Part shown: positions 17,547 to 63,173 of the stretch, in pieces
Numbering within the stretch: the stretch's first letter is position 1
Layout of the letters: each line of letters starts with the position of its first letter
DNA from: Isoetes taiwanensis
Lineage: Eukaryota > Streptophyta > Lycopodiopsida > Isoetales > Isoetaceae
NCBI GenBank assembly: GCA_021234155.1
Contig: JAJEKV010000013.1
Coordinates: forward strand, 12,488,669 to 12,552,668
DNA: 64,000 nt
Direction: 5' to 3'
Program-made: the position numbers and the translations under genes
The notes under the pieces: generated by a model
What the model saw: only the letters and a program-made list of their open reading frames with translations
Database searches by the model: none
What the model was told of the DNA's origin: nothing

Positions 17547-18096
17547 TAAGAAGTCGTATTTAATTAAAGTGGGACTCATTCCATTCCCATTTTTTTTTGG
17601 AACCCTGTTAATTTACATGAAAAAGAGCACCCCGACCCGAAAACTATCCTTAATTCGATTTTTTGTCTAGAACTCTGCATCGAAGCTTTCCTCCAGTTTT
17701 CCCTGATTAGCGAGTCGAGAACAAGAACAATGCAACTGAAACAATGGAAATTCATTACAGATTGAAATCAAAGTTCTAGATTGAAACCAAAGTTTACAAT
17801 GGTTGAAGATATCATGATGGTCGGGCTGACACAAATATTACATCATCTTCGCGACACGCACACCACCCTCCCATCGGGAACAACATGCGAGCAAGGTCCG
17901 AGTTCCAAGCCACAAGAGCAACTTGAAGAGAATAGAAATCTGAACACGCTAGCCCCATTATGGCTCCCGATCATGTCCTTTCTGTTCGCGATTTGTACTG
18001 GGAAAGGCAAAATCAAGTTAGTGCAAGTGATGCTACAGACAATACAAATAAGAAAACAACCAGTTCTAAGGGCCATTTCTGAAGAATGTAGGTGTG

Positions 18097-18530
18097 AGGC
18101 CTTTCTCAACTTCCTTGAGTCGAAAGGCCCCTCTGATGTAGCTTAGAGCCCAAAAAAACAAAAAAACAAGAAAAAAAAAATTCCTTCTTTTTCTAAGTAG
18201 GCAAAAAAAAAAATTTTTTGAGGGCCTTTCTCGACTTCAGCCGGTCGAAAAAAGACCCTCAAGGCCCTTCTATCGGCCTTTCTCGACTTCATGAGTCGAG
18301 AAACGTAGCTCGAGTAAAAATTTTTTTTTTTTTTTTAACTAGGAAAAAAAAGGTTTTTTTTTCAAGAAATTTTTAAGGGCCTTTCTCGACTCGTGGGTCG
18401 AGAAAAGCATCTGAGAGTAAAAAAACGCAGTTTTGGGGGGTTGAGAAAGGAAGCTCAAAGTGAAAAACAGAGTTCGAGGTCGAGAACCGCTAGATCGAGG
18501 ACCTTTCTCGACTTCATGAAGTCGAAAGGC
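18097..18530. repeat. Reiterated palindromes, CCTTTCTCGACT..AGTCGAGAAAGG type
   Basis: Inverted-repeat units occur near 18097-18127, 18222-18250, 18274-18305, 18376-18407 and 18497-18525. They are built on GGCCTTTCTCGACTTC and its complement around a short centre. The same palindrome type recurs at 61159-61650 in copy 2. Confidence 0.75.
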
Positions 18531-25388: not shown

Positions 25389-26088
25389 TGTTAAGATTTA
25401 GGTCATATAATACTTTCTTCAGTTGAAGCCAGATCTATAGCCTCAGATCATATTGGAGCTTGATATGAATTTGAAGGTGCAATGGTATAGAAAAGGGTAC
25501 ATCTCTTGAAAAAAAAAACAAGCATTAAAAGTTCGATTTGTGAATCAATGGTTTCCAAGTTCATTTCTAAAAGAATGCATGTGGGATAATTCTATACGAA
25601 AGCTTGTTTTCGTTGTAACGAATGTGGGATATATCGAAAGCTCCAGATTCTCAAGTTAGCAGGTTTATCCAGCCGAAACCGACTGCGGGTCATAGATAAA
25701 TACCAAGAATACAATGTGCTTGATCGACAACGGAGCATAGACCATTAATTCAGTGCCGGAATTATGGTTATAAGTTGAAGCAGACTATTGCTACAGTGTT
25801 CGAAGTGATCCCATTGCTACAGTACCATTTCGGTATTAATGGCTAAGGTTTAGCTTAATGGTTGAATGGATTTGTGTTTGCACTTGATGTTTGCAAGGGA
25901 TTAGAGACCAAATTGTGGCTCCCTTGTGATGTATTTGCTAGCCAAATACATGTTGCTATCAAGATGCATTTGAAAAATTAAGTCTATAACTTTTTCCTTT
26001 TGAATCATTGCATTTGTATCATTTGAACAAGTTATAAGCTTGTGATTCTTGTGAGAAGAAAAGCATTAAGTAGATTTCATTTCTAACA
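25389..26088 (+). repeat. Copia 5' LTR (700 bp)
   Basis: It begins TGTTAAGATTTAGGTC and ends CATTTCTAACA. Its text at 25495-25510 (GGGTACATCTCTTG) is the uninterrupted form of the site where the TIR transposon entered the 3' LTR. Confidence 0.92.
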
Positions 26089-29532: not shown

Positions 29533-30029
29533 ACTGCAACTCAAAGCTTCTTGTGACTCGATTGGGCGGAGATCTAGATCAAAGAAAGTCAACTTCGGTT
29601 ATGTTGTTTTACTTGGAGGTGCTCCTATAGCTTGGAAATGCAAAAAGCAAGGAAGCATAGCTCTCTCTAGTGCGTAAGAGAATACAATCAAAGACAGCTC
29701 TATTAACTAAAGAAGTGGTTTGGGAAAGAAGGTTGTTATCTGAACTTGGTGTAGAACAATCTGAACCTACAATCATTTTTTGTGATAGCACGAGCTGCAT
29801 TGCCATGTCAAAAAACCCTGTGTTGCATGAAAGAAGTAAACATATAGAGATGGAAATACATTTTGTACGAGACATGGTTGAAAAGAATCTAGTACAGCTT
29901 GCCTATGTGAATACAGTTGATCAAAAAGCAGATCTGCTAACTAAAGCATTGTCACTGGGGAGGTTTCAGAACTTAAGAGATTCAGTGCAATACAATGGTA
30001 AGAAAGATTATATGAAGGGGGAATGTTAA
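29533..30029 (+). pseudogene. Copia RNase H
   Basis: Two frames give GYVVLLGGAPIAWKCKKQGSIALSS, then EQSEPTIIFCDSTSCIAMSKNPVLHERSKHIEMEIHFVRD and VDQKADLLTKAL, the standard Copia RNase H. The ATG-less frame at 29670-30029 ends ten bases before the 3' LTR. A premature stop at about 29678 separates the halves. Confidence 0.85.
30015..30023 (+). promoter_or_regulatory. Polypurine tract
   Basis: AAGGGGGAA immediately precedes the 3' LTR and would prime plus-strand DNA. Confidence 0.8.
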
Positions 30030-30137
30030 GATTTAGGTCATATAATACTTTCTTCAGTTGAAGCCAGATCTATAGCCTCAGATCATATTGGAGCTTGATA
30101 TGAATTTGAAGGTGCAATGGTATAGAAAAGGGTACAT
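30024..30137 (+). repeat. Copia 3' LTR, first part
   Basis: These 114 bases are identical by eye to the start of the 5' LTR and end in ACAT, where the TIR transposon begins. Confidence 0.92.
30134..30137. repeat. TIR transposon target duplication, left (ACAT)
   Basis: ACAT occurs once at the matching place in the 5' LTR (25499-25502) and twice here, at 30134-30137 and 42840-42843. Confidence 0.85.
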
Positions 30138-30166
30138 AACCATCATTCAATTAAATTGGAATTATG
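30138..30166 (+). repeat. Left terminal inverted repeat
   Basis: It begins AACCATCATTCAATTAAA and is 29 bases long. It pairs with 42811-42839 with one mismatch. Confidence 0.92.
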
Positions 30167-31097
30167 TCTATTCCAAAATCGCGCCGTATAAGCATTTTAT
30201 TGACCATTATATTGAATTAACCACACTTTTGCACTGTGTTCATTTTCGGGCTAGGAAGATGCATTTTATGTTGAAATGCAAAGGCATTCAAATATTGGAT
30301 GCAAATGACCCATATTATAACAGAATGTTGGCAATAGAAAAAGCAGGAAATTGCTTATTAATTCGCACATTCACGAACAACAACGAAATCTAAACATTGA
30401 AATTGTAATGCTTTACGAATAAATAACAGCAAGCAAGTTGCTACAAAACAGAGATTTTCGTGGTTCAAATCGCGCGTGGCGCGATTTGCTTGGCATAAAT
30501 AACGCATTATAATAGAACATAAACTTAAAAAACTAATCCGATTCATCGCCGTCAATTATTTTGGTCCCGAGATCCCGTCGATCATGAACAAACCATGCTC
30601 GGATTCCATATAAGATGGATTACAACATCAAAGGGATCAGGATAGAAGCGGGCCGGGATTCATAGCAACGCGACATCAAGCCAGTCCCAAGTTCTATTTC
30701 TAGCTCGCGGCACCGCAGAGGTCCGCATGGTTCATCGTCGCGGTAATAGAATGTGCCATAATAACAAGCGTATATGAGACCGGCCGATGGTTTGCCAATT
30801 TCATGCATGCCTATTTATACACACCTAAATTATTGACCGGTATATACATACAAATTATTGCAAGTATAGCAACTCATACACATAATATAAAAAAAAATAT
30901 TACCACGTAACCAATAATGCTGATATAAGAACACAATATATATTCAAAACCTTTACGTGTAAAGTATATTTCATATTCAAAACTTTTGGAAAGTGTATTT
31001 TCTCAGATACATATATATCAAAAAGTTCCCTTTCTAGAACGATTTTCTCAAGGTCCCCGTCAATTTCCCCGTCCGATCAAGTTATGGGTGTAGTGTT
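30167..31097. other. Left subterminal region of the 12.7-kb transposon
   Basis: No gene is recognised. It holds one GCGC palindrome at 30466-30488. A plus-strand frame at 30088-30393 spans the LTR-transposon border and is therefore incidental. Confidence 0.5.
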
Positions 31098-31127
31098 TGT
31101 ATCTCTTCGATTTGTTTTTTCCTGAAG

Positions 31128-31650
31128 CTATTTCCTGCAAGACACTAACAAAGCGGCGGTGAAGTCATCTTTGTCAAAATCTTGAGGATGATAGGGTGGC
31201 GGATTCAATGACTGTGACTGATTGAAGCAACACTTTAGAGCGTCATCATCCACAATGATCATGCCTTCCTTATCCTCAACACCTAGGGCATCCATCATGT
31301 TGCGCAAGCATTTCACAAATATCTTTTTACCTGTCGGTTCTTTAGGGTTTGTGAATGAAGCACATTTGCTTTGATCCCAGATGGACGCCCAATCTCTATT
31401 TAGCTCAGGCACTACTTTCAAAACATCCTGTATATTTCTATGCTCCATAGATGACCAAATTGCACAACGAAACATACTGAAGGCCTGGTCCAACATCTCC
31501 TTCGGATAAGGGCGGGTAAACATATTTGGTAATGTGTCTCTCAAATGGTTGTTAAGCATACCATGACTTTTCGAACGTTGCTTTAGGTAACATTCTACAT
31601 AGCACACCATTCAAATCAAAGACCAAAGACTTTTGGGGAAGCCAAATCAT
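31128..31650 (-). pseudogene. FCP1/NIF-type HAD phosphatase-like domain
   Basis: The minus strand gives VFDLNGVLC (31598-31624), where HAD enzymes have the nucleophile motif DxDx, then RPYPKEMLDQAF, RCAIWSSMEHRNIQDVL, DWASIWDQSKCASF, KKIFVKCLRN, IIVDDDALKCCFN and YHPQDFDKDDFTAALL. The order and text fit the NIF/FCP1 domain (PF03031), which dephosphorylates the RNA polymerase II tail or related targets. The second aspartate of motif I is asparagine, so catalysis is doubtful. A frameshift lies between motif I and the rest (near 31560). It may be the C-terminal module of the ParB-methylase gene through splicing, or a separate downstream gene. Confidence 0.75.
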
Positions 31651-31849
31651 TTTACGTAAGGAGAACAATAACGTATGAGATAAAAGAAATGGTAAACGAA
31701 AACGCGCCAGGCGCGATTTCATGAATGATGCATGTCAACATAATTTAAAAATATGATCTCTAGGAAACTATAAATCGCGCCTGGCGCGATTTCTATATGC
31801 TTGCAGTTTGTAAAATGCATGGATATCAAAAAAAGGAATATTGTTACGA

Positions 31850-32318
31850 TACCTTTCTTCTTCTTCATTCCCCGTTGTGACTTCTTCCGTTGCATCCTTA
31901 TTCTGAGTTGTCTCCGGTCTGATAGAAGCACCAACCACATCAGTTGAGATCTGTACAGTGTGAACTATGCTTGATAGTTCATTACTCTTTAAGCTAACCT
32001 GGCTAGTGTTTTCAGATTTGGAGTCTGCTTCATCCTCATTATTGTTATTATCATCATCCTTGTTATCTTCAACCTGTTCTATATTTTTAGGGTCAAGGAT
32101 GTTCACAGGGATGTCGATAGGTATTTGGTAATTTGGCTGATCTTCGGTTTCATCCATGATGTTGTGGCCAACGAATAGCTTTCTCAATCCTTCCCGTTCC
32201 TTAAGCAAATCTGCAGGTATTTCGGCCTTAGAGGTAGAAGCTTTGCTTTTTGCACTGTCGATTGGTCCCCTAGTTGCTTCCTCTAGTACTTTCTCAAAGA
32301 AGAGGTCCAAGAAATTTT
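31850..32318 (-). pseudogene. Acidic tail after the methylase-like domain
   Basis: RAKNFLDLFFEKVLEEATRG continues the methylase C-terminus. A linker follows with a long acidic run (EDNKDDDNNNNEDEADSKSEN) and ends at EEEER with a GTATCG donor near 31850. It has no enzymatic motif and probably links to the phosphatase-like module. The frame itself runs on to 31768 past the putative donor. Confidence 0.5.
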
Positions 32319-33410
32319 TGGCTCGATCATCCGAGAGACGGCGCCCGACATTTCCTTGCTAACTTCAAAGCTTCTCTACCGATGTAACCTCCAACGTGAA
32401 GTTCCCAGCAAGTTGTTCCCAATGGACAAAATGCTTCAATGAGATACTGGGAAAGGTCCATAGAGAACCCGTTCTTGTTTAGCTTACCCTTATGTGAAGT
32501 TAGGAGCTCATACTTAATGTGGCCCACAAGAATTGGGTCGTCCTCGTTTTCATCCTCTTCTTCCTCTAACTCTTCCACGACCTTGACACCCTTCCCCTTG
32601 TCTTCTTGCTCCGGATAGAAGGCGTTTTAGCGATATCGTTCATCTAACTGATAGCACTGTCATGCTAGTTTGTCTCCATCTGGTTTTCCCTTGAGCCTTT
32701 CATATTCCTTATCATCCATCATGACTATCATAATTATAAGCACATGAAAAATTTTACTTTAAATCTTTGAAGTCACCGGCCCCCTCGCTTTTTCATCTAT
32801 GAGGATCGCCGTCATTATGACTTTCACGCATTCTAAGTCATTTGCAGCAGTTAGAGCATATGCATAGGACATGTCGGAGGGACATATAGTGATAATTGTG
32901 TAGTTCATCTCCGTGGTGAAACCATTGCATATGTTGAAGAACGTATTATAGTCATCAAGCGACCATCTGGTGCCTCGGCTATCAAGGACGAAGAGTGTGA
33001 TATCATGGGGACCAGCACCCACTTCTGGCAAGGCACACTTGAAACCAGTGGACACTTGATAAAAGAAAGTGGATTCTGTCTCCGGAGTCTGCTTCACCAT
33101 CGCGACTTTTCGTTTCAAGTCGGATGCAACTTTAGTGTGAAGCCCACTGATCTTTGCAACGTTCTTCAACTTCTGCTGCTTGACAAAGTCCTTGGACCAA
33201 AATACATACTTCTTCAGGTCGTCGTTGGAGACGTTATACTTTTGCATGACTCCTAACTCCGACAACGATCACTCTCCTGTAAGCCTTTGTAATTCCTCAC
33301 CAACTGCCTTCTTGAGCACTCTAATATTCTTCAGCTCGTCGCATGCATCTTCAAATGATTCTAGAGCCTTTGCTGCCGAGGTTTTCTTGTAAAGAATTTC
33401 CTTTACGATT
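32319..33410 (-). pseudogene. Beta-class DNA methyltransferase-like domain
   Basis: The frame at 33265-32759 contains ITLFVLDSRGTRWSLDDYNTFF, in the place and context of the catalytic DPPY motif of N6-adenine/N4-cytosine methylases. It is followed by YTIITICPSDMSYAYAL, a typical next strand. The frame at 32578-32327 then gives KNGFSMDLSQYLIEAFCPLG, WELHVGGYIGREALKLARKC, the place of the AdoMet-binding FxGxG motif. Catalytic motif first and AdoMet motif last is the permuted beta-class order (N6_N4_Mtase). Both signatures are altered (DSRG for DPPY; HVGGY for FxGxG), so methylation activity is unlikely in this copy. An upstream helical stretch (KEILYKKTSAAKALESFEDA, 33390-33330) continues from the spacer. 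Frameshifts lie near 33265 and 32600. Confidence 0.6.
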
Positions 33411-33484
33411 AACTTTGTCGGGCGAGATCAGCTCTTGATCGTCCAATCCAATCTGAGCCTTCCTCATCTCTCATTATATGTATA

Positions 33485-33835
33485 TCAAAATTGATGTGTC
33501 AACGGGAGGAAATCTTCCTTGTGAATCGGCAACTTCTTCTCGACGTAGGCATCCCAGAATTCATTCCATTTCTCCCATACTGGATCTGAAGCAAATACTA
33601 TCTTGCAGGCATCCTTGGGCACAATTGGTTCCTCAGAAGCGTCACCCTTTTCATCCCCTTTTTTTTTCTTTGATCTGGTGCTCTTGGTTTTGTCTTGTAT
33701 TATCGTCTGACTAAGTGTCCTCTCCAGCAACTTGAATTCAGCCGCTTTTATCGGCCCGGCAATGGTTGGCATTGGCTTCCCATATTCAATCCATTGGTTC
33801 CGGAGCATGCGAAGTTGCTCTATATAGGGACCAAA
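33485..33835 (-). pseudogene. Spacer exon between ParB-like and methylase-like domains
   Basis: After a CCTATATAG acceptor near 33828 the frame reads MLRNQWIEYGKPMP, then a basic run KSTRSKKKKGDEKGD, then DPVWEKWNEFWDAYVEKKLP. The basic run could be a nuclear localisation signal. I recognise no enzyme motif. Confidence 0.5.
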
Positions 33836-33904
33836 GGAGTGACCTTGTTAGCTTCATAATCGGAATGAAATAAATCCTTCTAGTTTAAAATCGCGCTGCA
33901 GGCG

Positions 33905-34265
33905 CGATTTCATATTAAAGCAAATCGCGCCCGGTAGCGATTTGCCTACTCTAAAGAGAAAACGCTTATTGATCCGTTTCGTCAAACAAATCATCATCGG
34001 CGCCGGGCGCGATTTCATATTAGAATGCAAATCGCGTCAGCGAGGCCTAGCCCGGAGGAGGCTTGGCTATTAGGCGGATAGCCTTTTCTCCGAGGGTAGG
34101 CAAATCCCGCGTGGGGCGTTTAACATTCTAATATGAAATCGCTGGCGAGGCGCCATTTGTTGTTTGACGAAACGACTATCAATCCGTGAGCGTTTTTTCT
34201 CTTCCGAGGGGCAAATCGCGCTGGCTCATTTGATTCTAATATGAAATCGCTACCGGCGCTGATTT
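33905..34265. repeat. Large imperfect foldback built from GCGC palindromes
   Basis: The left arm (about 33905-34035) and right arm (about 34120-34260) are inverted copies sharing TTTGACGAAACG/CGTTTCGTCAAA, ATTCTAATATGAAATCGC and AGCGTTTTCTCTT. The centre, near 34040-34115, has its own GGCTATTAGGCGGATAGCC stem. The foldback lies in the non-coding gap between the ParB-like exon and the spacer exon, probably an intron. Confidence 0.7.
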
Positions 34266-34407
34266 GCAAATAAGCGAAAACCTAAGGGAGGAAAATTACC
34301 TTTTTGTATAAGAATGTTTTTCCCATGTCATTCGTGAGGCGCTTATTTCGCTAGCTTCGGCGGTGTGGTTGAGCCGCCAGAACCCGGCGGTTTAAATGTA
34401 ATACGAC

Positions 34408-35418
34408 TTATAGAACAACCGATGCCCGGTTATCTTGTGCCTTCTTGATCGAGAACCTTCGGGCCTCTATTGAATGCTGGCCATCTATTATCATGAAATG
34501 TATGTCAGGATTCTCGATGAAGTCCTCCAGCTTGCTCCACATGATTACCTTCCTCGTTCTGGTATCGTACGGCACTACATCTGCAGGCATTGGCACTTGC
34601 CCTGGATTTTCGATCATGATGTTCACTATCTCCAAGGAGTGCTGCTTGTCATACCTTCTGCTGATATAAATGGCTTTAGTGGACCTGAAAAGCCTATCCA
34701 CGTGGACTGGATGGGTGAAGCTCAGGCCCAGTGGATATTTGTCAGCATATTTTTTGAGCTTGCTCATCGCCTCCAACTGCCTGGCCTTGTCATCGTCACT
34801 TGTAAGGCCTGCTGTCGCTTCTGTAATTTCCCTGCCTTTAGAGCTTTCTTCTTCCTTATCCTTCACTGCCTGTAAGTAGACACTGCCCGAGGGCCTCGTG
34901 CTAATGGCTCGCTGTAAGCCCCTCGCATATTCTTTTAGGAGTCAATGGCTCGCCAACTGTCCAGCCAAATTTGAAGAGGTTATCGGCCATGTCGTCTGAT
35001 CTTAATGCAGTCTCTTTAAAAGAGCTAGCACTGCATCGATTGATCTTCTTTAGGCTCTTCTTATGTTTTTGGCCCACTTCAACTAGCACAGAACAGAAAG
35101 AATCGTCTTGTACTTCGCATGTAATAAGAATTCCCTGCTTCTTCATTTGATCAGTCTCTCTTACCCTTGACATGAATATGAGGTCTGTCTTCCCACCAGT
35201 TTTGAATATCTCCACATACCATTCTGACCCCTCTACAAGATCCTCTTCTGGACATGTAGGTTCTACCTGAGCCTTTATTATTCCAGATGTATCTTCTAAC
35301 GTCAATACATCTTTGCAGTGCATAATAAGATAACATCTTCATCATCCCTTTGCTTTTTTCGGGTCAGTAGAGGTCTCACCTTGCTTGGTCCTCCCTCTTT
35401 TGCTTGTCTTTTGTGATC
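34408..35418 (-). pseudogene. N-terminal and ParB/Srx-like part of the multidomain gene
   Basis: An exon opens after ATTTCACAG at 35418 with a basic stretch (SQKTSKRGRTKQGE). A domain of unknown type follows (EGSEWYVEIFKTGGKTDLIFMSRV, CEVQDDSFCSVLVEVG). Then comes GLSFTHPVHVDRLFRSTKAIYISRRYDKQHS, MIENPGQVPMPADVV and HFMIIDGQHSIEA (about 34500-34462). A paired 'P' region and a terminal I-DGQH-x-x-A motif are the mark of the ParB/sulfiredoxin fold, including DGQHR-type proteins. In bacteria and phages such domains are often fused to N6/N4 methylases, and here a methylase-like domain follows. Frameshifts fall near 35330 and 34905. Confidence 0.6.
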
Positions 35419-36014
35419 CTGTGAAATTACAGCACATGGGTTAATCTTTTAATGCTCAAATATATGCTGTCGACACATATGCAACAAAAAAAAGCGGCAA
35501 GCGATTTGAAAATGAATACACAGCAAGTTCATTTAGTTTATTGGGGTCAGGGGCCAGGCGCGTTTTGTCCCAGTCAAAATGCAACAAATACGCGCTTGGC
35601 GCACTTTAGAAGTGACCTGAAAGACAAAGAAACTAATGTAATGCCTAATTAAACTGCACCAGGGGCGTTTTGTCCGAATCAAAATGCTCAGGACACAACT
35701 AACTATAAAAAATGCAACTTAAAGAGTTGAATCTTCATTAGAGGACACAACTAACTATAAAAAACACAACTAGCTACTGAATACTGTTCAGCTAAGTATA
35801 CAAGCTTCAAACAGCATATACAGCATTAAAAGAGAAACCAACATGCACACATTAAGCATTTATTTCCATACATTTTTGGGACATATGAACTTAAATATTA
35901 GAGGACACGTGCTTCTTATCAGATAATAACTATATTATTACAGAAAAACATCCTAAAAATCTAACAAAAAAAGGGACACAGAAATCAATTACAGAACAAA
36001 AACAGATCAATTAC

Positions 36015-36142
36015 CTGAGGCGCTTGTTGGATTTGTGCTTTCTGCTTGTTCAGCAAAATTCTCCGGGCTTGGGATTTGTGCTTTGGGTCATTTGCCCACC
36101 TCTACCAAATACTTCGGCGGCGGCGGATTCTCTAGACGCCAT
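36015..36142 (-). pseudogene. Probable first exon of the multidomain gene
   Basis: ATG at 36142 opens MASRESAAAEVFGRGG. The reading ends at a CTCAG/GTAATT donor near 36015, but a one-base shift puts a TGA in the frame at about 36050. The exon lies 600 bases upstream of the next exon (35418). Its start faces the plus-strand exon beginning near 36578, so a divergent promoter of a few hundred bases (about 36143-36520) probably serves both. Confidence 0.5.
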
Positions 36143-36577
36143 AGAACTGCAAGTGCGGATAATATGAGACTGGGGTTTTGGTTTAAACTTATATGTATGC
36201 GTTCATAATCTAGGCCATCAGATTTACAACCGTAAATTCAAATTCGCGTCCTTTTAAATTTATACCGCCTTAATTAACCGCCCGTCCCGCTCATTTACAA
36301 ATTTAAATTGTGTTTTTCTTTTTAGTGCAATTTCAAGATAACAATTAATTATTAATTTCAAAAAACGATATGTGGCAATCTACTACCACCTAATCGGCCA
36401 CCTACTATCGAGGCCCAAGATCATTCCTACTATCGAGGCGCCCAAGAACAATCGACTATCGAGCGCCCATTCGATCGAGCGCCTTCAATCCCATTCGATA
36501 TCTCTGAACTATGGTGAGTGTGATTCCATTCGAATGCATTCTCTTGTTCTCTATTTTTTGTCCTCTATTTTTTTCCA

Positions 36578-36848
36578 ATGCATTACGGTTCTTTATCGAT
36601 TAATGGGAGAAGAATGCTATCTTTTAACAACAAACTTGAAGCTTGGAAGGTAGGCTTACGTAAAATCGAAGATCTGAATCCAAGTTCTATGTGTCATGGT
36701 GTTCCTCTTGGAAACAGTTTCTGTAAGATTTTTATTATAAACTGCAATTATGAAGATGAGGCTCTTTCAAGAAGACATCCCGGTGGCGATACAGTTGGTG
36801 AAAGTGTGGGCACATTTGTAGCATGGCCAAAAGAACGTCTGAAAAAGG
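36578..36848 (+). pseudogene. Plus-strand exon with a VAWP-type domain
   Basis: The frame gives LRKIEDLNPSSMCHGVPLGNSFCKIFI and GGDTVGESVGTFVAWPKERLKK, then a GTATGT donor. This LG..F..(TVG..)VAWP text resembles a beta-rich domain common in plant transposon-associated proteins (DUF8039-like). The transposase gene at 39.9 kb carries a similar stretch (NDERLGEDRLGVAI..TIVAWPRESIQ), so it may be a duplicated exon or an upstream exon of the same gene. Confidence 0.5.
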
Positions 36849-37150
36849 TATGTATATTTGGATATTCAAAAAAAAATGAATATATCATAACATCTGCGTG
36901 ATGTTGTGAATTTTGAATTCTTTGATGTTCTTTAGCCAGTCATATCAACCCCATGAAACTACACATTAATGAAAATATGTAGTTTCTTGGGGTTGGTCAT
37001 ACTGGCTGGAGGGCATCAAAGGATTCAATGTTTTCGACATTGCATATAAAAAAACATAATAAACTAATGACATAAAAATTCATATTCCAAAAAAGTGTAT
37101 GTACATTTCTTCTTCTGCAAAAATGCGCCAGGCGCGAATTCTTTCTATCT

Positions 37151-37579
37151 CTACAATATGTCACATAGGCCCACCTCATCGGCCCAATACCGCAAAAAGT
37201 CCCACCTGAACCACTCTGATATGACAGGATCCTCATCTTCCCTGCGAATGTCGAGTCTCCAAACCAGAGTGTTGTATCGATCCTTGATACTATAAATCAA
37301 ATCCTCGTACTTATTTGTTGGCATGAGCCTTACTAAGAGCATGAGGAGCCGCATATGTCCAGAGATGCGATGGAAGTGTTCCCATGGCCCCTGATACAGA
37401 CTGTCTAATGGATTCTCCAACTCTCTTTGAACGTTTTGAACAGCACAAGCAAGTAATATCTTGTACAGGGTCCAGAGTTGATGGTCGTCCAGGGGAAGTG
37501 TATTTGAACTAGAACCAGCCCGGTTAATATTTGAACTAGGATCAGCCAAAGGTCCATTCATAAGGAAAATCCATGGCAC
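37151..37579 (-). pseudogene. Unrecognised minus-strand coding exon
   Basis: The open frame of 142 codons is preceded by a TTCTCGTTCTAG acceptor at about 37580. It reads LPLDDHQLWTLYKILLACAVQNVQRELENPL, GPWEHFHRISGHMRLLMLLVRLMP and RYNTLVWRLDIRREDEDPVISEWFRWDFLRYWADEVG, which looks like a helical, protein-coding domain. I do not recognise it. It lies upstream of the multidomain gene on the same strand and is bracketed by GCGC palindromes (37119-37140 and 37655-37822). It may be an exon of a further transposon gene. Confidence 0.45.
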
Positions 37580-37822
37580 TAGAACGAGAAAATTAAGTAA
37601 TTAGCAAATGATATATTACTCTCCCCATAAAACGATTCTCAACATACATAATTCAAAAACGCCAGCGTTTGTTTTATTTTTTCACAGATCTATTTCACGC
37701 TACCTGGCGCGATTTGTATAGAACCGTATGAAATAGAAAAGCCAAACTAAAACGCCGCTGGCGGCGCTTTGATTAACCTAGTGGAAAATCGAAACCAAAA
37801 TAGAAATGCGTCCAAGCGATTT

Positions 37823-39620
37823 CTCCCATTCTAACGTATTATTCTAACGTAATGCATAATGCGAAATCACGAGAATTCAAAATATGAAGCCAAAATAATA
37901 TGAAGGCGAGAATATAATAAAATAGAATGAAGACGATAGAGCGGATATATAATAATAATACTCCTTGTTTAGTTCAATATTTAGTTCATTGTTTTAGTTC
38001 ATTATTTAGAGCAGATAGAGGAAGAGCTAGTGAAATAGAATAAGAGCAGATACAGCAAAATCATATAAGCAAGATCATAGAGCAGATAGATCATAGAGCA
38101 GATAGATCATAGATCATAGAGCAGATAGATCATAGAGCAGATAGATCATAGATCATAGATCATAGATCATAGATCATAGAGCAAGATCATAGAGCAGATA
38201 GATCATAAATCATTATTTACTTCATTATTTTAGATCATTAATTAGAACAGATAGAGGAAGAGCTAGTGAAATAGAATAAGAGCAGATCATATAGGCAAGA
38301 TCACAGAACAAGATCATAGAGCAGGATCTATATATGAAGGTGCTAGGGCAGTTTAGGGCTGATGCATGTAAAAGTCTAAGCCAGAAACCTGAAGCTCATA
38401 TAGTACTTTAAGTAAAGAACAGAAAATACTAATCTATTTGTGTTCTGTACCCGAGAATTGAGCCTTTGCCTTTGAGCCGAAACCAAAAAATCGAAAACCA
38501 AAGTTGATTTGATTCGAGAAGCCAATAGCAGATGATTTGAGCCTTAAGAAGCCAAGAAGAAGCAAACCGAGAAGCCGAGAAGCTTCAACACAAAAACAAA
38601 AAACCAGAAAACTTTGTTATTCAAAAGCCAAAAAATCCAGAGACATTGTACAGAGCCTACAAACCTTTGAGCCGAAAACACCTTTGAGCCGAAAACACCT
38701 TTGAGCCGAAAACCCTAAAGTAGATGATTGTAGAAGCCGAAAAGCTCGAAAACGCAGATAAAAGCAGATAAAAAGCAGATAGAAGCCGAGTTTAAAGCAT
38801 ATAGAAGCCGAGTTTAAAGCAGATAGAAGCCGAGAAGCCGAGATTGAGCAGATAGAAGCCGAAGTTTAAAAAAGCGGATAGAAGCCGAGAAGTCGAGATT
38901 GAAGCAGATAGAAGCCGAGAAGCAGATAAAAGCCGAATTTGGAAGCCAAGATTGGAAGCAGAAGCGGAAGCGGAAGCGCCTGTAATTAGCTTGGAATGCG
39001 AAAAGTTCGAAGTGAGAAAAAAGGTTCAAAAAAGGGTAATGCTAACTTCAAATAATAACCGCCTTCAAAATTTATCACACAGCGCAATTATCACTTTTGG
39101 GCCTTGAAATTTATTACAAAGATTTTTTGTTTTAAGGACCGTGACTTTAAAAGTTTAAAAGTTATGAGTTAATAGTTAAGTTAGTTGTTAATAGTTATAA
39201 GTTAATAGTTAATAGTTAAGTTATAAGTTATAAGTTAATAGTTTAAAAGTTATAAGTTAATAGTTAAGTTAGTGACCTTAAAACTAACCTTAAAACTTAG
39301 TTCTAACCTTAAAACTTTTAACCTACAATAACTTTCCAACCTTAAAATTTCTAACCTATAATAACCTATAATAAACTTCTTAACCTTAAAACTGCTAACC
39401 TATAATTAATAACCTTAAAAGTTGTTGCTAAGGTTATTATAGGATAAAAATTAGAAGGTTATAAGTAGAGGGTTTTATTTATATATAATGTTGAGGAAAA
39501 TAATTTGGGGAATCCCATTATATAAATAGAATGATCAAATAGAATAAGACATATATGAGGCTTTCATTTATGAACATGTTAGTGAGAGGTTATTTGGATA
39601 TGCTAACTTACTATATGTTT
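37823..39620. repeat. Simple-repeat block inside the 12.7-kb transposon
   Basis: Three low-complexity tracts follow one another: AGATCATAGAGCAGAT-type repeats (about 38040-38340), GAAGCCGAGAAGCAGAT-type repeats (about 38660-38970) and TTAATAGTTAAGTTATAAG / AACCTTAAAAC repeats (about 39150-39440). No gene is seen. Confidence 0.75.
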
Positions 39621-39642
39621 TTATGCATTCTAGGTCAATGGC

Positions 39643-42587
39643 ATGCAAAATGCTAAAAAAAAAGCCCCCAATGATGCTGATCAAGGCAAGGAAAAATCCC
39701 CAACTAATGAACATGATGGCCAAGGAAAGGAAAATACCTCAAATGATGTTGATGATGGCAAAGGAAAGGAAAAGACTCCAAATGATGTTGATGATGGCAA
39801 AGGAAAGGAAAAGACCTCAAATGAAAAGAAAGGAAATTGTACTTTATACTCGGGTCGATTGGAAAAACAAAAAGGTCAAGATCCGGCATGCATGCAATAG
39901 AGAGGCAGTAGGAGAAGGGATTATTGTTCTAGCAGATCCTATCAATGCAGTGAATGATGAAAGACTAGGGGAGGACAGGTTAGGTGTGGCAATCTCAAAA
40001 TTATATGACAATTGGAAGGAAAAGGGTTCAGGCAAACAAGAATGCCTAGCTTGTGTGAAGCAACTAGAGGTTCCAACTATTGTTGCATGGCCTAGGGAAA
40101 GTATTCAACTGGAGGGGAACTACACGTTTCCTATAGATGTAGAACCATTGTCAACAATGTTCACACAGTGTAGCAAGAGGCCACTTCCAACTTTCAAACA
40201 TTATCCCACCAAAAGATGCAAGTCAGATTATGATTGTTCTCCTGAAGCTATGATGAAGGTTAGAGGAGGTGAATGTTGTTGGGCTTCTTGTGTTAGAATG
40301 TTCACAATAGAGGAGTTGGTGGGAACAAGAGCTACATATCGGGAACATAAGTGTGATAGCGGGAGGAATTTCATGTACACCATATTTGGCTATGCAATTA
40401 GGGATGAAAGATCAAAGAAGAAAAGATTCCCATTGAATGGAAAGTGGATATGTTCAAAAGCATGGATGGCTATACATGGAATTCCAACCTCTTCTTGGCA
40501 CAACCGGCAAAAGAGACATGAAAATGGTAGTAAAATTGCATTGCATGGGAACACCGGCCGGTAAGGCCTACCTCAAGAACTATAGCCGCAAAGGAAATAT
40601 TTGAAAGATATGTGGATTTCAATGCGTAAAAACATGCCACATAAGAGTAAGAAGGATGAACAGGGATAGAGTTATTGTTGAAAAGAGATTGTCATCCCAT
40701 TGTACCCGGGAGAGCATATTAGAGGAAATAAATGCATTGCTTCGGGAACTTGGAGTGGCCTCTATATCCCAGCCCAGTTTTAGTAGGCTATGGAATAAGC
40801 ATTTCAAGCATGTGACCATAGCAACTTCAAACAACTTTGCCAAGTGCAATTTATATGCTAAGTTGAAGGAGACACTAGATAAGATTGTGCAACCAAGTCT
40901 AAGGGCAAAGATAAGGGAACATATGAAGGACCATATGACGGATCAACTATCATGTAGATCAACTTATTGGATGTGGAGGACCTTATCGCAATGGAACCTA
41001 ATAACTATCTATGTATTATACATGATAAAATGGACCAACAGAAGACTTGTCTTCCACAATTCAAGTACATTCCTAAGTCATGTGAAAGATCATACCCTTT
41101 TGCGATTTCAATGATCAAAGCAATATTGCATGGGCGCCCCTCGGACCTATTATGGTCATTTCAGTTTAGAGTTGTGGAGTGATGGTCCAGATTTTCACAT
41201 TGGGAGTATCATGAGGTGTTTAAGAAACTATGAGAAGGGTTACAATGGTCACCTCTGGGATCCCACGGCTAGCCGTGCACTACATAGTGCATTGTTGGAT
41301 GGAACCCTAATAGTATTGAAAAGTTTAGCAAGGCAAGATTTAGGAGGAATGGACCTAATGAACATGTTGGAGCTTCAACATCTCGTGCTAAACCTCGAGA
41401 TCCGCCCTTGAAAGCTCCTCTTGCAACTAGATAATTGTGCTTTGGTCAAAATAAGAACAGTGGATGTTTTCTTTCCTATCCTACTTACTAATTTGTGGGT
41501 ATTTTTGAAAGAGTCAATTTGGGGTTCCTAATGCCCTATTATACTCATGAGGATGTGGATGCATTGTTTGGAAAATATAGTCATGTATTGAGACAACAGA
41601 CAGTTACCAACTTTCCCAGGCTATTGGAAATATTTCATGGATGTACAAATCCATCTCCTATAGGATCTATCATAGAAGAAGTGCCTGATTGGAAGAGTTT
41701 TGTGGATGGTTATGCTCTCGACATGGAAGGTCATTCTAGACCTCTTCAATTCACTTTTGGGTGAGAGAAGGGATTCCAATCATGCAATGGAAAATGAGAC
41801 CTTCAGGAGGAGAAGTGGAGAGGTGGGGCAGAAATTTGGCACGGGGATGCAAATGGCAAGCCTATGATACCTCTGGTCAACCAAAAGCTCTAAAACCAAC
41901 CGAAGAAGTCAAGCAATTGGGATTGACTAAGGATGGCATCAATGACTACATCAAGCAATCGCAAACTAATTTAATCGTGCATTGATAGATTATTGGAAGA
42001 AGGTGATCAACTTGTTGGATGAGGTAGACACATCCTCGGAAAAGCCGAAAGAAGGGTGGTTCCCTAAAAATAAGTGGAAAACATTAGCTGGTGCTTTAAG
42101 ATGATGGTACCATTAGTAGCATTGTGAAGGCATATGCTCCTCCTCAATCGATAAACACTATGTTGGTCCTAAGAAGGATATGCCAAAATATTTAGGCATG
42201 GATTGTTATGAACCTTCTCTTGACGTGGAGTGCCACCAATTTGTAGTAGTAAAACCAAGATCTAGAGACCTATCCAAAGGTGGTTGGGATACACTATCTC
42301 GGATATTTGCAAAGAAGAAGGTGATGTTAACTTCAATAAGGTGCGCGTGGAATGGTGGTGTCCAGTACATCAGTTGAGTAATGTCACCGAAAAAAGAAAG
42401 ATATTCAGATTGTTGGGCAAAGAGGTGGAGGAGAAATCCAAGTGATCCTGATCTTTGGCTAGACATTGAAACCGTATTGTACTCGTGGACTCCAAAAACT
42501 ATTCCTAGTAAAACAGCGAGAGTTACAATACCTCAGGATGTAAGGAATAAGGTTCTCATATCCTTGGGGATGCTAGTGAAAAAATGA
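39643..42587 (+). pseudogene. DDE-type transposase gene (decayed)
   Basis: The N-terminus (39643-39900) has an acidic repeat, DDGKGKEKT(P/S)ND. The next frame has a VAWP-type domain and Cys/His-rich text (KRCKSDYDC, GGECCWASC, HKCDSGRNF). HFKHVTIATSNNFAKCNLY then leads to the catalytic core. NYLCIIHDKMDQQKT (first D, about 41008-41038), LLQLDNC (second D, 41415-41435) and YYTHEDVDALFGKYSH (E, 41537-41570) fit the DDE triad of a family found in plants and cnidarians with an LQLDNC..GHTHEDID signature. Frameshifts occur near 39850, 40560, 40960, 41180, 41410 and 41760. It stands divergently from the multidomain gene and near the right TIR, as the element's own mobilising enzyme. Confidence 0.7.
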
Positions 42588-42810
42588 AAAACAGTTACTA
42601 TGTATCTTTTCTACAGTTAATAAAAGTTGTGTACTACTTGAGTTCCATGATATATGATTTTGTAATTTGAAGTTAAGGTGTGAGTTTATATTCCCGTGTG
42701 TGATTATATGTTAACGTCTATTCTAGTCTAAGGGCAACAAAGTTACTAAAAAAGTGAATTTAACAAAGTTACTAAAAAAGTGCAATATAAAATTTATCCC
42801 AAAATTAAGA

Positions 42811-42839
42811 CATAATCCCAATTTAATTGAATGATGGTT
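42811..42839 (-). repeat. Right terminal inverted repeat
   Basis: It is the reverse complement of 30138-30166 with one mismatch and is followed by the duplicated ACAT. Confidence 0.92.
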
Positions 42840-43431
42840 ACATCTCTTGAAAAGAAAAAAACAAGCATTAAAAGTTCGATTTGTGAATCAATGGTTTCCA
42901 AGTTCGTTTCTAAAAGAATGCATGTGGGATAATTCTATACGAAAGCTTGTTTTCGTTGTAATGAATGTGGGATATATCGAAAGCTCCAGATTCTCAAGTT
43001 AGCAGGTTTATCCGGCCGAAACCGACTGCGGGTCACAGATAAATACCAAGAATACAATGTGCTTGATCGACAACGGAGCATAGACCATTAATTCAGTGCC
43101 GGAATTATGGTTATAAGTTGAAGCAGACTATTGCTACAGTGTTCGAAGTGATCCCATTGCTACAGTACCATTTCGGTATTAATGGCTAAGGTTTAGCTTA
43201 ATGGTTGAATGGATTTGTGTTTGCACTTGATGTTTGCAAGGGATTAGAGACCAAATTGTGGCTCCCTTGTGATGTATTTGCTAGCCAAATACATGTTGCT
43301 ATCAAGATGCATTTGAAAAATTAAGTCTATAACTTTTCCCTTTTGAATCATTGCATTTGTATCATTTGAACAAGTTATAAGCTTGTGATTCTTGTGAGAA
43401 GAAAAGCATCTAGTAGATTTCATTTCTAACA
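42840..43431 (+). repeat. Copia 3' LTR, remaining part
   Basis: It continues the LTR from ACATCTCTTG to CATTTCTAACA. Added to 30024-30137, minus the four duplicated bases, it makes 702 bases against 700 for the 5' LTR. The two-base difference is in an A run. Confidence 0.92.
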
Positions 43432-60470: not shown

Positions 60471-61158
60471 GGTATGTACCAAATTCAAATTTCGAAAATG
60501 AGGGGGAAAAAAAAGCGGGGTAGAGTAAAAAGAACAATAAATATGTACCAAATTCAAATTTCGAAAATGAGGGGGAAAAAAAGCGGGGTAGAGTAAAAAT
60601 AACAATAAAGATTTAAAAAAGAAATAGAGGATTTATTTGTTTGAAGCTTTACATTTTCCGCAAGTTCTAGTCATATTTGGCAAGTTTAATTTGGCAAGTT
60701 TTATGCATTCTTTCAAGCATTCTTTGTATGCTCGTTTAGAGTTTGTGATAGTCTATTTTTCATAGAAAATATATAGGGAGTGTATTTTTCATAGAAAATA
60801 CATAGGATATTGTGTTTATTGAAAAATACATAGTATATAGGATATTGTGCTTTGTATGGACCGTGTGCTAGTATGCTAATGCGTGTATTATGAAATTGTG
60901 GTAGTATAAAGTACTAATGTGTCTGCTTTTTAGGTGTGCTAGTATAAAAATGCTAATGTGTGCTAATACTAATGTGTGCTAGTATAAAAACCATTGTTAA
61001 ATACTAATGTGTGCTAAATACTAATGTGCTGTGAGAAAAACAATAAACTATGGTGTGATAGAATAATAAACTATGGTGGAAAATTAGATGGATAGATAGA
61101 TAAAATGATGCTCCGCAAAAATAATCTCTGGCCCTTGAAATTGCCTTTTTTTACTCTG

Positions 61159-61650
61159 AGCTGCCTTTCTCAACTCGCGAGTCGAGAAAGGCCCTCAAAC
61201 CTGCGTGCTTTGAGCTGCCTTTCTCGACTCGCGAGTCGAGAAAGGCCTTCTGACCCCTAAAACCTGCGTTTTTCACTTTGAGCTGCCTTTCTCGACTTCG
61301 CGAATTCGAAAGGCCTTTCCCGACCTAAAACTGCGTTTTCACTTTGGTGCCTTTCTCAACTTCGCGAAGTCGAGAAAGGCCTTCGACCTAAAACCTGCGT
61401 TTTCTGCAGCCGGGAAGGCCTTTCTCGACTTCATGAAGTCAAAAGGCCTTTGACCCTAAAACTGCGTTTTTTAAACTTTGGTACGCCTTTCTCGACTTCG
61501 CGAGTCGAAAAGGCCTTCAACCCCTAAAACCTGCGCTTTTAGCTTTGAGTCGCCTTTCGACTCGCGAGTCGAAAAGGCCTACTCGACACCTAAAACTTGC
61601 GCTTTTAAGCTTTGGTACGCCTTTCTCGACTCGGGCTCTCGGACCTATAT
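61159..61650. repeat. Reiterated palindromes, CCTTTCTCGACTCGCGAGTCGAG type, ~8 copies
   Basis: Units begin near 61161, 61215, 61283, 61348, 61427, 61486, 61551 and 61618. Each has CCTTTCTCGACT, a centre CGCG (or CATG), and the complement AGTCGAGAAAGG, followed by ACC(TA)AAAACCTGCGTTTT. Spacing is about 54-79 bases. The matching tract in copy 1 is at 18097-18530. Confidence 0.82.
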
Positions 61651-61679
61651 TTTTCAAAAATGGCCCTAAGAACGTGTTT

Positions 61680-62840
61680 TATTTTTATTTTTTTTGCCTG
61701 TAGCATCACTTGACTAACTTGATTTTGTCGTTTGCAGTCCTTATCTCGACCAGATAGTACATGCTTGGGAGCAATGAAAAGACCAGTTCATTGAAGAAAG
61801 ATGCCGAGAAGAGGGTGGTGACATCAGTTGGACACAGGGTAGCCCTTAAGGACGAAAGTTCGCCAAAAGGCTATTTTTTAAGGGTATCGAGAAATTTTGA
61901 CGCTATGGTTTAGTAGGACCCGTTATAGATGACAAAAATATAATTAGCCAACTTTTCTACGAACAAATCTCAGTCCACTTGAAAATTCGCCACATCCACT
62001 AAGCATCATAACTATGGATTCGCCTTATCCTCTACCCTCCTTCTCGAAGATTTCTTAAGGAATCGCTCAATATTCTAGGCTTTCTTCATAACCTAATCTA
62101 TTCTCCATATCCATCCAGGTATATATGATAATATTAAGAGTTATTTTTGTAGCTATTGTGTTTCAAATACTTTTAAGGATGCAGTGGAAAGCATTTTTTT
62201 ACTGACCTCCCTTTAAATAGATTTGTTTTAATTACAAGGATAAGCCACGTTCGCATCTGCAAAGGTTAAGTTGTGGTATTGCATCATGCAACTATAGTTA
62301 TAATGTGTTTGTGTCCTTGATTAAATATGGATGCCGGTGAATAAAATTTCACCACAAAAATTCCACTTGAAAAATAAAGACACTTAAATCTTTGCAAAGT
62401 ATTATTGGCCATGATTCGCCTAGATTTCTATAAAAAACAATCATGTCTAGAAAACATTCGCCAACATAACTAATCTTGCAACTCTATTATTCGCCCGACC
62501 TTCTAAATTATGCTTAGACAAATTTGGCCTTAAGGGCAACCCTGGTTGGACATACAAGCACGTGGCCTATGAAGGAACTCCTCATATAAATTTCTATCGT
62601 CTGTAAGTTGCTCCGTGACTTGGACAGAGCTCCACGCGCCGTTTGCACTAGGTGGTTCATGTGTGAAGAGGGTGTAATCATTGTGATAATATGACCACTA
62701 TGGTCGCTTCACCCACTGTAATATATATTGTAATGAGCCCATTTATAAATATAAGGTATCTCAAAACTAGTATTTTTTGGTGATTAAGTAAACAATTTGC
62801 TTAATTTTTGTTGGAATTTGTGATCTCTTGTCTACCCACC
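61680..62840. other. No gene recognised
   Basis: Backbone of TIR transposon copy 2 between the palindrome tract and its right arm; I see no coding motif. Confidence 0.45.
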
Positions 62841-63173
62841 TAAGAAAATAGAGCCAAAATGTCTTGGTAAAGGAATTCACAGTAACAGACAAAAATTCGA
62901 ATTAAGGACAGTTTTCGGGTCGGGGTGCTCCTTTTTCTGTAAAATAACAGAGTTCCGAAAAAAAGTGGGAATGGAATGAGTCCCACTTTAATTAAATACG
63001 ACTTAGATGCATCTGCTTTTGTTCCCCCCCTCCCTAGACATTTGCACTTAGAGGTAGATTTAACCCATTGACACAAGTATTTTCTAGCCAAAATTTGCTT
63101 TGGGTTGGTCCCTGGGCTTTGGAGCTGGCCAAAATCCTCTCTTGGTTCATCCTAGAGTTTGAAAGCTAGCTGA

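Follow-up and report, generated by a model that had tools for sequence, protein, structure and literature searches.

Can a plant transposon carry its own machinery for recognising its DNA and for countering silencing? The question is raised, and made testable, by a 12.7-kb DNA transposon in the genome of the quillwort Isoetes taiwanensis, which occupies positions 30138–42839 of a 64,000-bp stretch of contig JAJEKV010000013.1 (assembly GCA_021234155.1, positions 12,488,669 to 12,552,668 of the forward strand; hereafter the window, to whose numbering all coordinates refer). The element belongs to a high-copy cut-and-paste family with a 4-bp target site duplication (TSD), 32-bp terminal inverted repeats (TIRs) and a plus-strand gene for a putative DUF7869-type transposase. 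On its minus strand it carries an accessory gene whose predicted product would be multi-domain, with a ParB/DGQH-like part, a methylase-like part that is probably non-catalytic, an acidic tail and a NIF/FCP1-like domain. This gene comes in two old and divergent versions, which elements otherwise much alike have exchanged as a cassette. From these sequence patterns we propose, giving the idea an even chance, that the accessory protein recognises the DNA of its own element through 21-bp palindromes and thereby aids transcription, movement or escape from silencing: it would bind palindromes dispersed along the element and, once bound, would act in cis on transcription, silencing or transposition.

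The ends of the element claimed in the original prediction, which was made from the letters of the window alone, are correct. The left TIR (30138–30169, plus strand) matches the right TIR (42808–42839, minus strand) at 31 of 32 positions, ACAT stands on both sides as the TSD (30134–30137 and 42840–42843), and the host site, one long terminal repeat (LTR) of a plant retrotransposon, is intact in the sister LTR, where the uninterrupted target lies at 25499–25502 and reads ...GGGTACATCTC... When the two flanks are joined with a single ACAT, the alignment with the sister LTR has 702 columns and 98.7% identity, with 7 mismatches (6 of them transitions) and 2 gaps. As the sister LTR has no insertion at this position, the transposon arrived later than the retrotransposon, which is itself young.

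Genome-wide, the first 22 bases of the left TIR have 971 forward and 982 reverse exact matches, and a reversed control word has none; these matches are ends and not counted elements, and the family perhaps numbers several hundred copies. We sampled 20 facing TIR pairs from the first places listed, ten of them 12.1–12.5 kb apart and ten 13.8–25.7 kb apart, and read about 6.4 kb inward from each end, which leaves the middles of the ten longer copies outside the data. The 4-bp flanks are identical at both ends in 18 of these 20 copies; the two facing pairs with unmatched flanks, L117/L118 and L123/L124, are likely to be ends of different copies or rearranged elements. For the transposase gene, on the plus strand, 18 copies match more than 500 of the 579 query residues and the remaining two are partial. 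For the accessory gene, on the minus strand, the query has 1176 residues: 17 copies match more than 800 of them, one matches 155 and two match no more than 150, and these last three copies are all among the ten longer ones. The accessory gene lies on the strand opposite to the transposase in all ten shorter copies checked. Since most of it is present in 17 of 20 copies, it is a regular component of the elements read; the suggestion that this cargo belongs to the mobile unit is thus upheld, both by these other copies and by the purifying selection described below.

The accessory gene can be read on the minus strand as exon 1 (36015–36142, donor CAG/GTAATT), exon 2 (34300–35418; an N-terminal conserved part and the ParB/DGQH-like segment), a palindrome-filled intron, exon 3 (31853–33843; a linker that reads as helical, the methylase-like region and the acidic tail), another gap that contains palindromes, and the NIF/FCP1-like domain (31131–31656), which could be a last exon or a separate gene. 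The limits of the three exons come from frames and predicted splice sites, and exon 3 is broken in the window. With the exons so placed, the read-through product has 1002 residues without the NIF part and 1176 with it; we infer that the NIF part is in the same protein as the upstream exons. The minus-strand frames of the original prediction do exist in the window, where there are five of 145–196 codons. Any one of them alone would be unexceptional compared with Markov resamples, whose longest single frame was 208 codons, but none of 500 resamples contained four or more frames of at least 145 codons, and we reject chance as their origin. Other copies retain parts of the gene that are broken in the window: in L125 a single open frame of 478 codons spans the methylase-like region and acidic tail, L112 has a NIF frame of 232 codons, and L130 has the N-terminal and ParB-like parts in 362 codons with a single stop.

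The 17 copies with most of the gene comprise two versions, A (11 copies, plus the one in the window) and B (6 copies: L095, L097, L104, L105, L118 and L121). For the ParB-like and methylase-like parts we compared A with B in 18 comparisons (6 B copies by 3 query pieces) and admitted a block only if its identity over 15 codons was 40% or higher. Synonymous divergence (dS) is saturated in 11 of the 18 and is 1.4–2.9 in the other 7; nonsynonymous divergence (dN) is 0.17–0.31, and dN/dS is 0.07–0.15 in the seven unsaturated comparisons. For the query within exon 2 (34411–34941), dN/dS is 0.09–0.12 against three B copies; for the other three, dS is saturated. In the 18 comparisons, third codon positions differ 1.9- to 3.1-fold more often than whichever of the first and second positions differs more. 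The NIF domain has a dN/dS of 0.20–0.30 between the versions, at a dS of 0.55–1.12, in all six B copies. Among A copies the ratio is 0.20–0.83, as expected for decaying copies. The low A/B ratios indicate that the accessory gene has been kept functional in source elements over a long time.

The two versions differ mainly in one block of the element. We compared the window in 400-bp steps with four A and four B copies. Against B copies, identity is 84–94% at the left end (30.1–31.3 kb), 89–98% at 36.1–37.7 kb and 94–99% in the transposase half (39.7 kb onwards); at 31.3–35.3 kb it falls to 72–81%, and two steps there, together with 35.3–35.7 kb, cannot be aligned at all. Against A copies, the same 31.3–35.3 kb interval is 81–97% identical. 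In the low-complexity tract at 37.7–39.7 kb, identity is highly variable for both versions. For the transposase, dS is 0.04–0.31 to B copies and 0.11–0.74 to A copies. Since a divergent accessory block sits on similar flanks and beside a similar transposase, the block has been exchanged between otherwise similar elements, most simply by recombination of two lineages of the transposon.

Both versions share a 21-bp palindrome, AAATCGCGCC-N-GGCGCGATTT, which is found repeatedly in their noncoding DNA. In the window, one copy with 1 mismatch is at 30467–30487, about 330 bp from the left end; one with 1 mismatch (31699–31719) and a perfect one (31772–31792) lie between exon 3 and the NIF frame; a cluster of degenerate copies and half-sites fills 33888–34265, in the intron between exons 2 and 3; a copy with 3 mismatches lies between the two genes (37120–37140); and the half-site search located a further half-site at 37706–37715. 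Full palindromes with up to 3 mismatches number four in the window, all within the element, and none was found in 100 shuffles. Half-sites with up to 1 mismatch number 17 inside the element and 2 outside it, compared to 2.63 expected in the whole window, and 12 of the 17 fall in the gaps of the accessory gene. We extended the half-site counts to 12 copies (6 of the 11 A copies and all 6 B copies): the noncoding DNA of the cassette has 3–14 half-sites in A and 2–8 in B, against shuffled means of 0.03–0.23, and the stretches counted as coding, that is, covered by protein matches, which may run into introns, have 0–4. One B copy, L097, has three perfect palindromes 42 bp apart. Because the B introns are otherwise unalignable to those of A, the palindrome has been either kept or re-acquired in both versions.

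The candidate DNA-binding part of the accessory protein is the ParB-like segment. Its motif IIDGQHSIEA (34462–34491, minus strand) falls in one of the 15-residue blocks most strongly conserved from A to B; these blocks include MSKLKKYADKYPLGL, NPGQVPMPADVVPYD and DIHFMIIDGQ-H/R-S-I/L-EA. The order of the last two, NPGQVPMPADVVPYD followed by the DIHFMIIDGQ block, is that of ParB N-domains. Compared with a DGQxR/GHRR-type signature, the element has FMIIDGQHSIEA in version A and FMIIDGQRSLEA in version B (from L095), with the usual final arginine missing from its position. According to PMC4619093, DGQQR/DGQHR motifs mark ParB/Srx-type proteins. A ParB-like identity is plausible, and because we have conserved blocks and a DGQH motif with no profile match we hold it at the motif level only: of the ParB/Srx-like DGQH domain originally predicted, the motif and its conserved surroundings stand and profile support does not. 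A single-sequence AlphaFold model of this part has a mean pLDDT of 34.6, too low to use. One weak NCBIfam match, to Csx26 on 34904–35338 (0.006; 16.4 bits, where the cut-off is 50), we took as chance.

Several results weigh against our interpretation. Searches of Pfam, NCBIfam, PHROGs and PDB sequences gave no profile support for ParB, and a whole-genome search with PF02195 gave 0 matches, its control being detected in 10 of 14 cases. We also built profiles of phage ParB-methylases from 79 proteins and applied them by hmmsearch --max and by profile–profile alignment: no ParB match to the accessory protein was better than shuffled sequence, and the methylase-like scores were likewise no better than shuffled sequence. 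For the methylase-like region, Pfam and NCBIfam gave no methylase match near a curated cut-off and PHROGs none of relevance, the only matches being weak and unrelated. Two B copies, L095 and L121, have 2 half-sites each, which is not above the largest value of 200 shuffles (3 and 2, respectively). The block filter in the A/B comparison biases dN downwards. The copies were picked as facing TIR pairs, a choice that favours complete elements, so shares such as 17 of 20 do not describe all copies; and among these 20 copies none was found with a fully intact accessory gene, which the original prediction had suggested looking for. Finally, several copies have palindromes outside the cassette too, some between the genes and some roughly 330 bp in from one end, so the transposase may be the protein that binds them.

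This last point leads to the alternative that survives best, which we nevertheless judge not very likely: that it is the transposase which binds the palindromes, and that the accessory gene does something unrelated, such as acting on host transcription through its NIF domain. The position of the palindromes that lie outside the cassette, near the accessory-side end and between the genes, would suit this alternative, as would the transposase being common to both versions, which would explain why two cassettes share one palindrome; other transposons, moreover, have repeated binding sites near their ends. It is less easily reconciled with the 12 of 17 half-sites of the window that lie in gaps of the accessory gene, or with the similar richness of cassette noncoding DNA in the other copies.

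The gene for this transposase, whose frames are broken in the window, extends over 39634–42584 on the plus strand, with limits taken from frames. It is homologous to DUF7869 proteins, which it resembles at the DUF7869 domain itself (41492–41761; Pfam PF25273, 2.3e-17) and in its N-terminal half, and a database search with it found 16 homologues, all of which carry PF25273 (E-values from 3.9e-57 to 2.5e-12). The N-terminal frame aligns to one DUF7869 homologue (2e-10 and 5e-10, in a single comparison). A conserved plus-strand frame further upstream (36524–36898; 89% mean identity in 25 matched pieces) is a possible additional exon, with a weak codon-position signal (162/134/193) and no match in a Pfam search. 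Pfam assigns DUF7869 no function, and our literature search found no paper naming it. We infer that the gene encodes the transposase because it sits, whole or in part, between the TIRs in 20 of 20 copies. The DUF7869 domain, the TIRs and a TSD of fixed length, seen across copies as well as in the window, fit a DUF7869-type DNA transposon.

A second alternative, which we think unlikely, gives the accessory protein an enzymatic activity: guided by its ParB part, it would methylate DNA at adenine N6 or cytosine N4 and so mark the transposon that encodes it, as has been proposed for algal transposons. The excerpts of PMC12477816 describe Sola1-1_Ec32, a giant transposon (21.5 kb) found in the brown alga Ectocarpus, with an 1104-aa gene for ParB plus an N4/N6 methyltransferase opposite its transposase. 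The layout and product length speak for the alternative: in both elements the accessory gene is opposite the transposase (10 of 10 copies checked here), its product is about 1000–1100 aa long (1002–1176 residues here) and it has ParB-like and methylase-like parts; self-recognition, which the excerpts propose for Sola1-1_Ec32, is also what we propose for the quillwort element. As further support one may count the purifying selection in this region, the order of its motifs, and a stretch, WELHVGGYIGREALKLARKC (32348–32407, minus strand), that resembles AdoMet motif I by eye only. This motif I resemblance found no statistical backing, and its glycines vary between A and B. Against catalysis, none of the 18 aligned rows that reach the region (19 were examined) has a DPPY-type motif IV, (D/N/S)PP(Y/F/W); at its expected place copies of both versions have LDSRG (32972–32986, minus strand), which is retained by several of the A copies and by two of the B copies. 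The one NPPY, in L099, is in the NIF part, outside the methylase-like region. The region matched no profile and scored no higher than shuffled sequence, so that the predicted N6/N4-methylase-like domain was not substantiated; a single-sequence AlphaFold model of this part has a mean pLDDT of 34.7, too low to use. From its sequence, the region could possibly have a methylase-derived fold, and a working amino-methylase is unlikely.

The ParB-N6/N4 methylase fusions of Vibrio phage D93 and Morganella phage Mecenats66 have the same order of parts, ParB followed by a permuted methylase (motif IV before motif I), but they carry DPPY and have no detectable sequence similarity to the quillwort protein. 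As far as the excerpts of PMC12477816 go, similar accessory proteins are cited there from a green algal transposon (ref 50, DOI 10.1016/B978-0-12-387685-0.00002-0) and a red alga (ref 51, Petroll et al. 2025, Bostrychia). Because the same layout has been published for a brown alga, the idea of a ParB-methyltransferase accessory gene is not new. The green algal reference is presumably Iyer et al. 2011. The original prediction that no plant transposon with this set had been described remains uncontradicted for land plants, for which our literature search found no report (most subscription papers lay outside the search), but for algal transposons accessory genes with ParB plus methyltransferase have been published (PMC12477816). 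Unlike Sola1-1_Ec32 as described in those excerpts, the quillwort element has a land-plant host, a NIF/FCP1-like domain, a palindrome array and two exchangeable versions, and lacks a canonical methylase motif; the host, the domain, the two versions and the array set it apart. Sola1 elements have a 4-bp TSD, with which the TSD found here agrees; we do not file the element as Sola1.

The FCP1/NIF phosphatase-like domain is the part of the prediction with the clearest confirmation. PF03031 (NIF) matches the open reading frame in the window at 4.2e-11 and its read-through with the upstream piece at 2.6e-13, and in copy L112 it reaches 2e-17 (63.8 bits, against a cut-off of 21.8). Phosphatases of the HAD class have the catalytic motif DxDx(T/V). 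In the A and B copies with a readable motif, this place reads DLN, mostly DLNGVL, so that the second catalytic aspartate is replaced by asparagine, and the domain may have lost catalysis. NIF domains are common in eukaryotes and the copy in the window is broken, as might suit a captured fragment of a host gene travelling as a passenger, but we reject this as highly improbable: most of the gene's length is present in 17 of 20 copies, its two divergent versions are both under purifying selection, and its orientation opposite the transposase (10 of 10 checked) recurs in the layout independently reported from the alga in the excerpts of PMC12477816.

Relatives of the accessory protein were sought more widely. 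A homologue search with the core of the protein, without NIF, found none (7994 candidates sharing the most words were scored), and a search focused on the ParB-like part found none at E ≤ 10 (26 candidates); the same database yields the 16 transposase homologues, so relatives of the transposon are present in it. Scans of viral contigs and of bacterial and archaeal genomes found no relative. TBLASTN searches against phages gave no match in one case and three chance-level matches (E-values 7–10) in another. An origin as a viral relic was rejected, the viral scans having found no relative.

Our preferred reading, in which the accessory protein recognises its own element through the palindromes, has a more elaborate form that we consider doubtful: the cassette might be an exchangeable self-recognition module, made of a ParB-like binder and its palindrome array, existing in two ancient, swapped versions and linked to host transcription by a CTD-phosphatase-like domain. 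If true, such module swapping would resemble the bacterial exchange of plasmid partition modules or of restriction-specificity modules. Algal transposons were already known to encode accessory proteins that combine prokaryote-like DNA-binding parts with methylase-like ones. Here, versions A and B on one backbone amount to a natural experiment with a defined candidate binding site.

The LTR pair that frames the insertion (25389–26088 and 30024–43431, the latter split by the transposon) is 98.7% identical and young, and by its motifs the interrupted retrotransposon looks Copia-like. The transposon's genes are broken despite its young insertion, so it was probably mobilised in trans, or some of the frame breaks are assembly errors. 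The published I. taiwanensis assembly, as described in excerpts of PMC8566536, combined nanopore and Illumina reads with optical maps and was polished with pilon, and given these data types some indels in the window's copy may not be biological.

Between the two genes there is also a minus-strand frame of about 149 codons (37151–37600; 86% identity in 16 matched pieces), which is probably not coding: its codon-position pattern is not coding-like (153/205/177) and Pfam gave no match. A purine-rich and AT-rich repetitive tract that is poorly conserved among copies (37970–39480) separates the accessory and transposase halves. Rfam, at gathering thresholds, had no match within the 64-kb window. 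Outside the element there are several inverted repeat pairs of 40–130 nt, about 43–45 kb apart (17551–18446 and 61125–63004); another repeat, at about 61.2 kb, carries the motif CTCGACTCGCGAGTCGAG.

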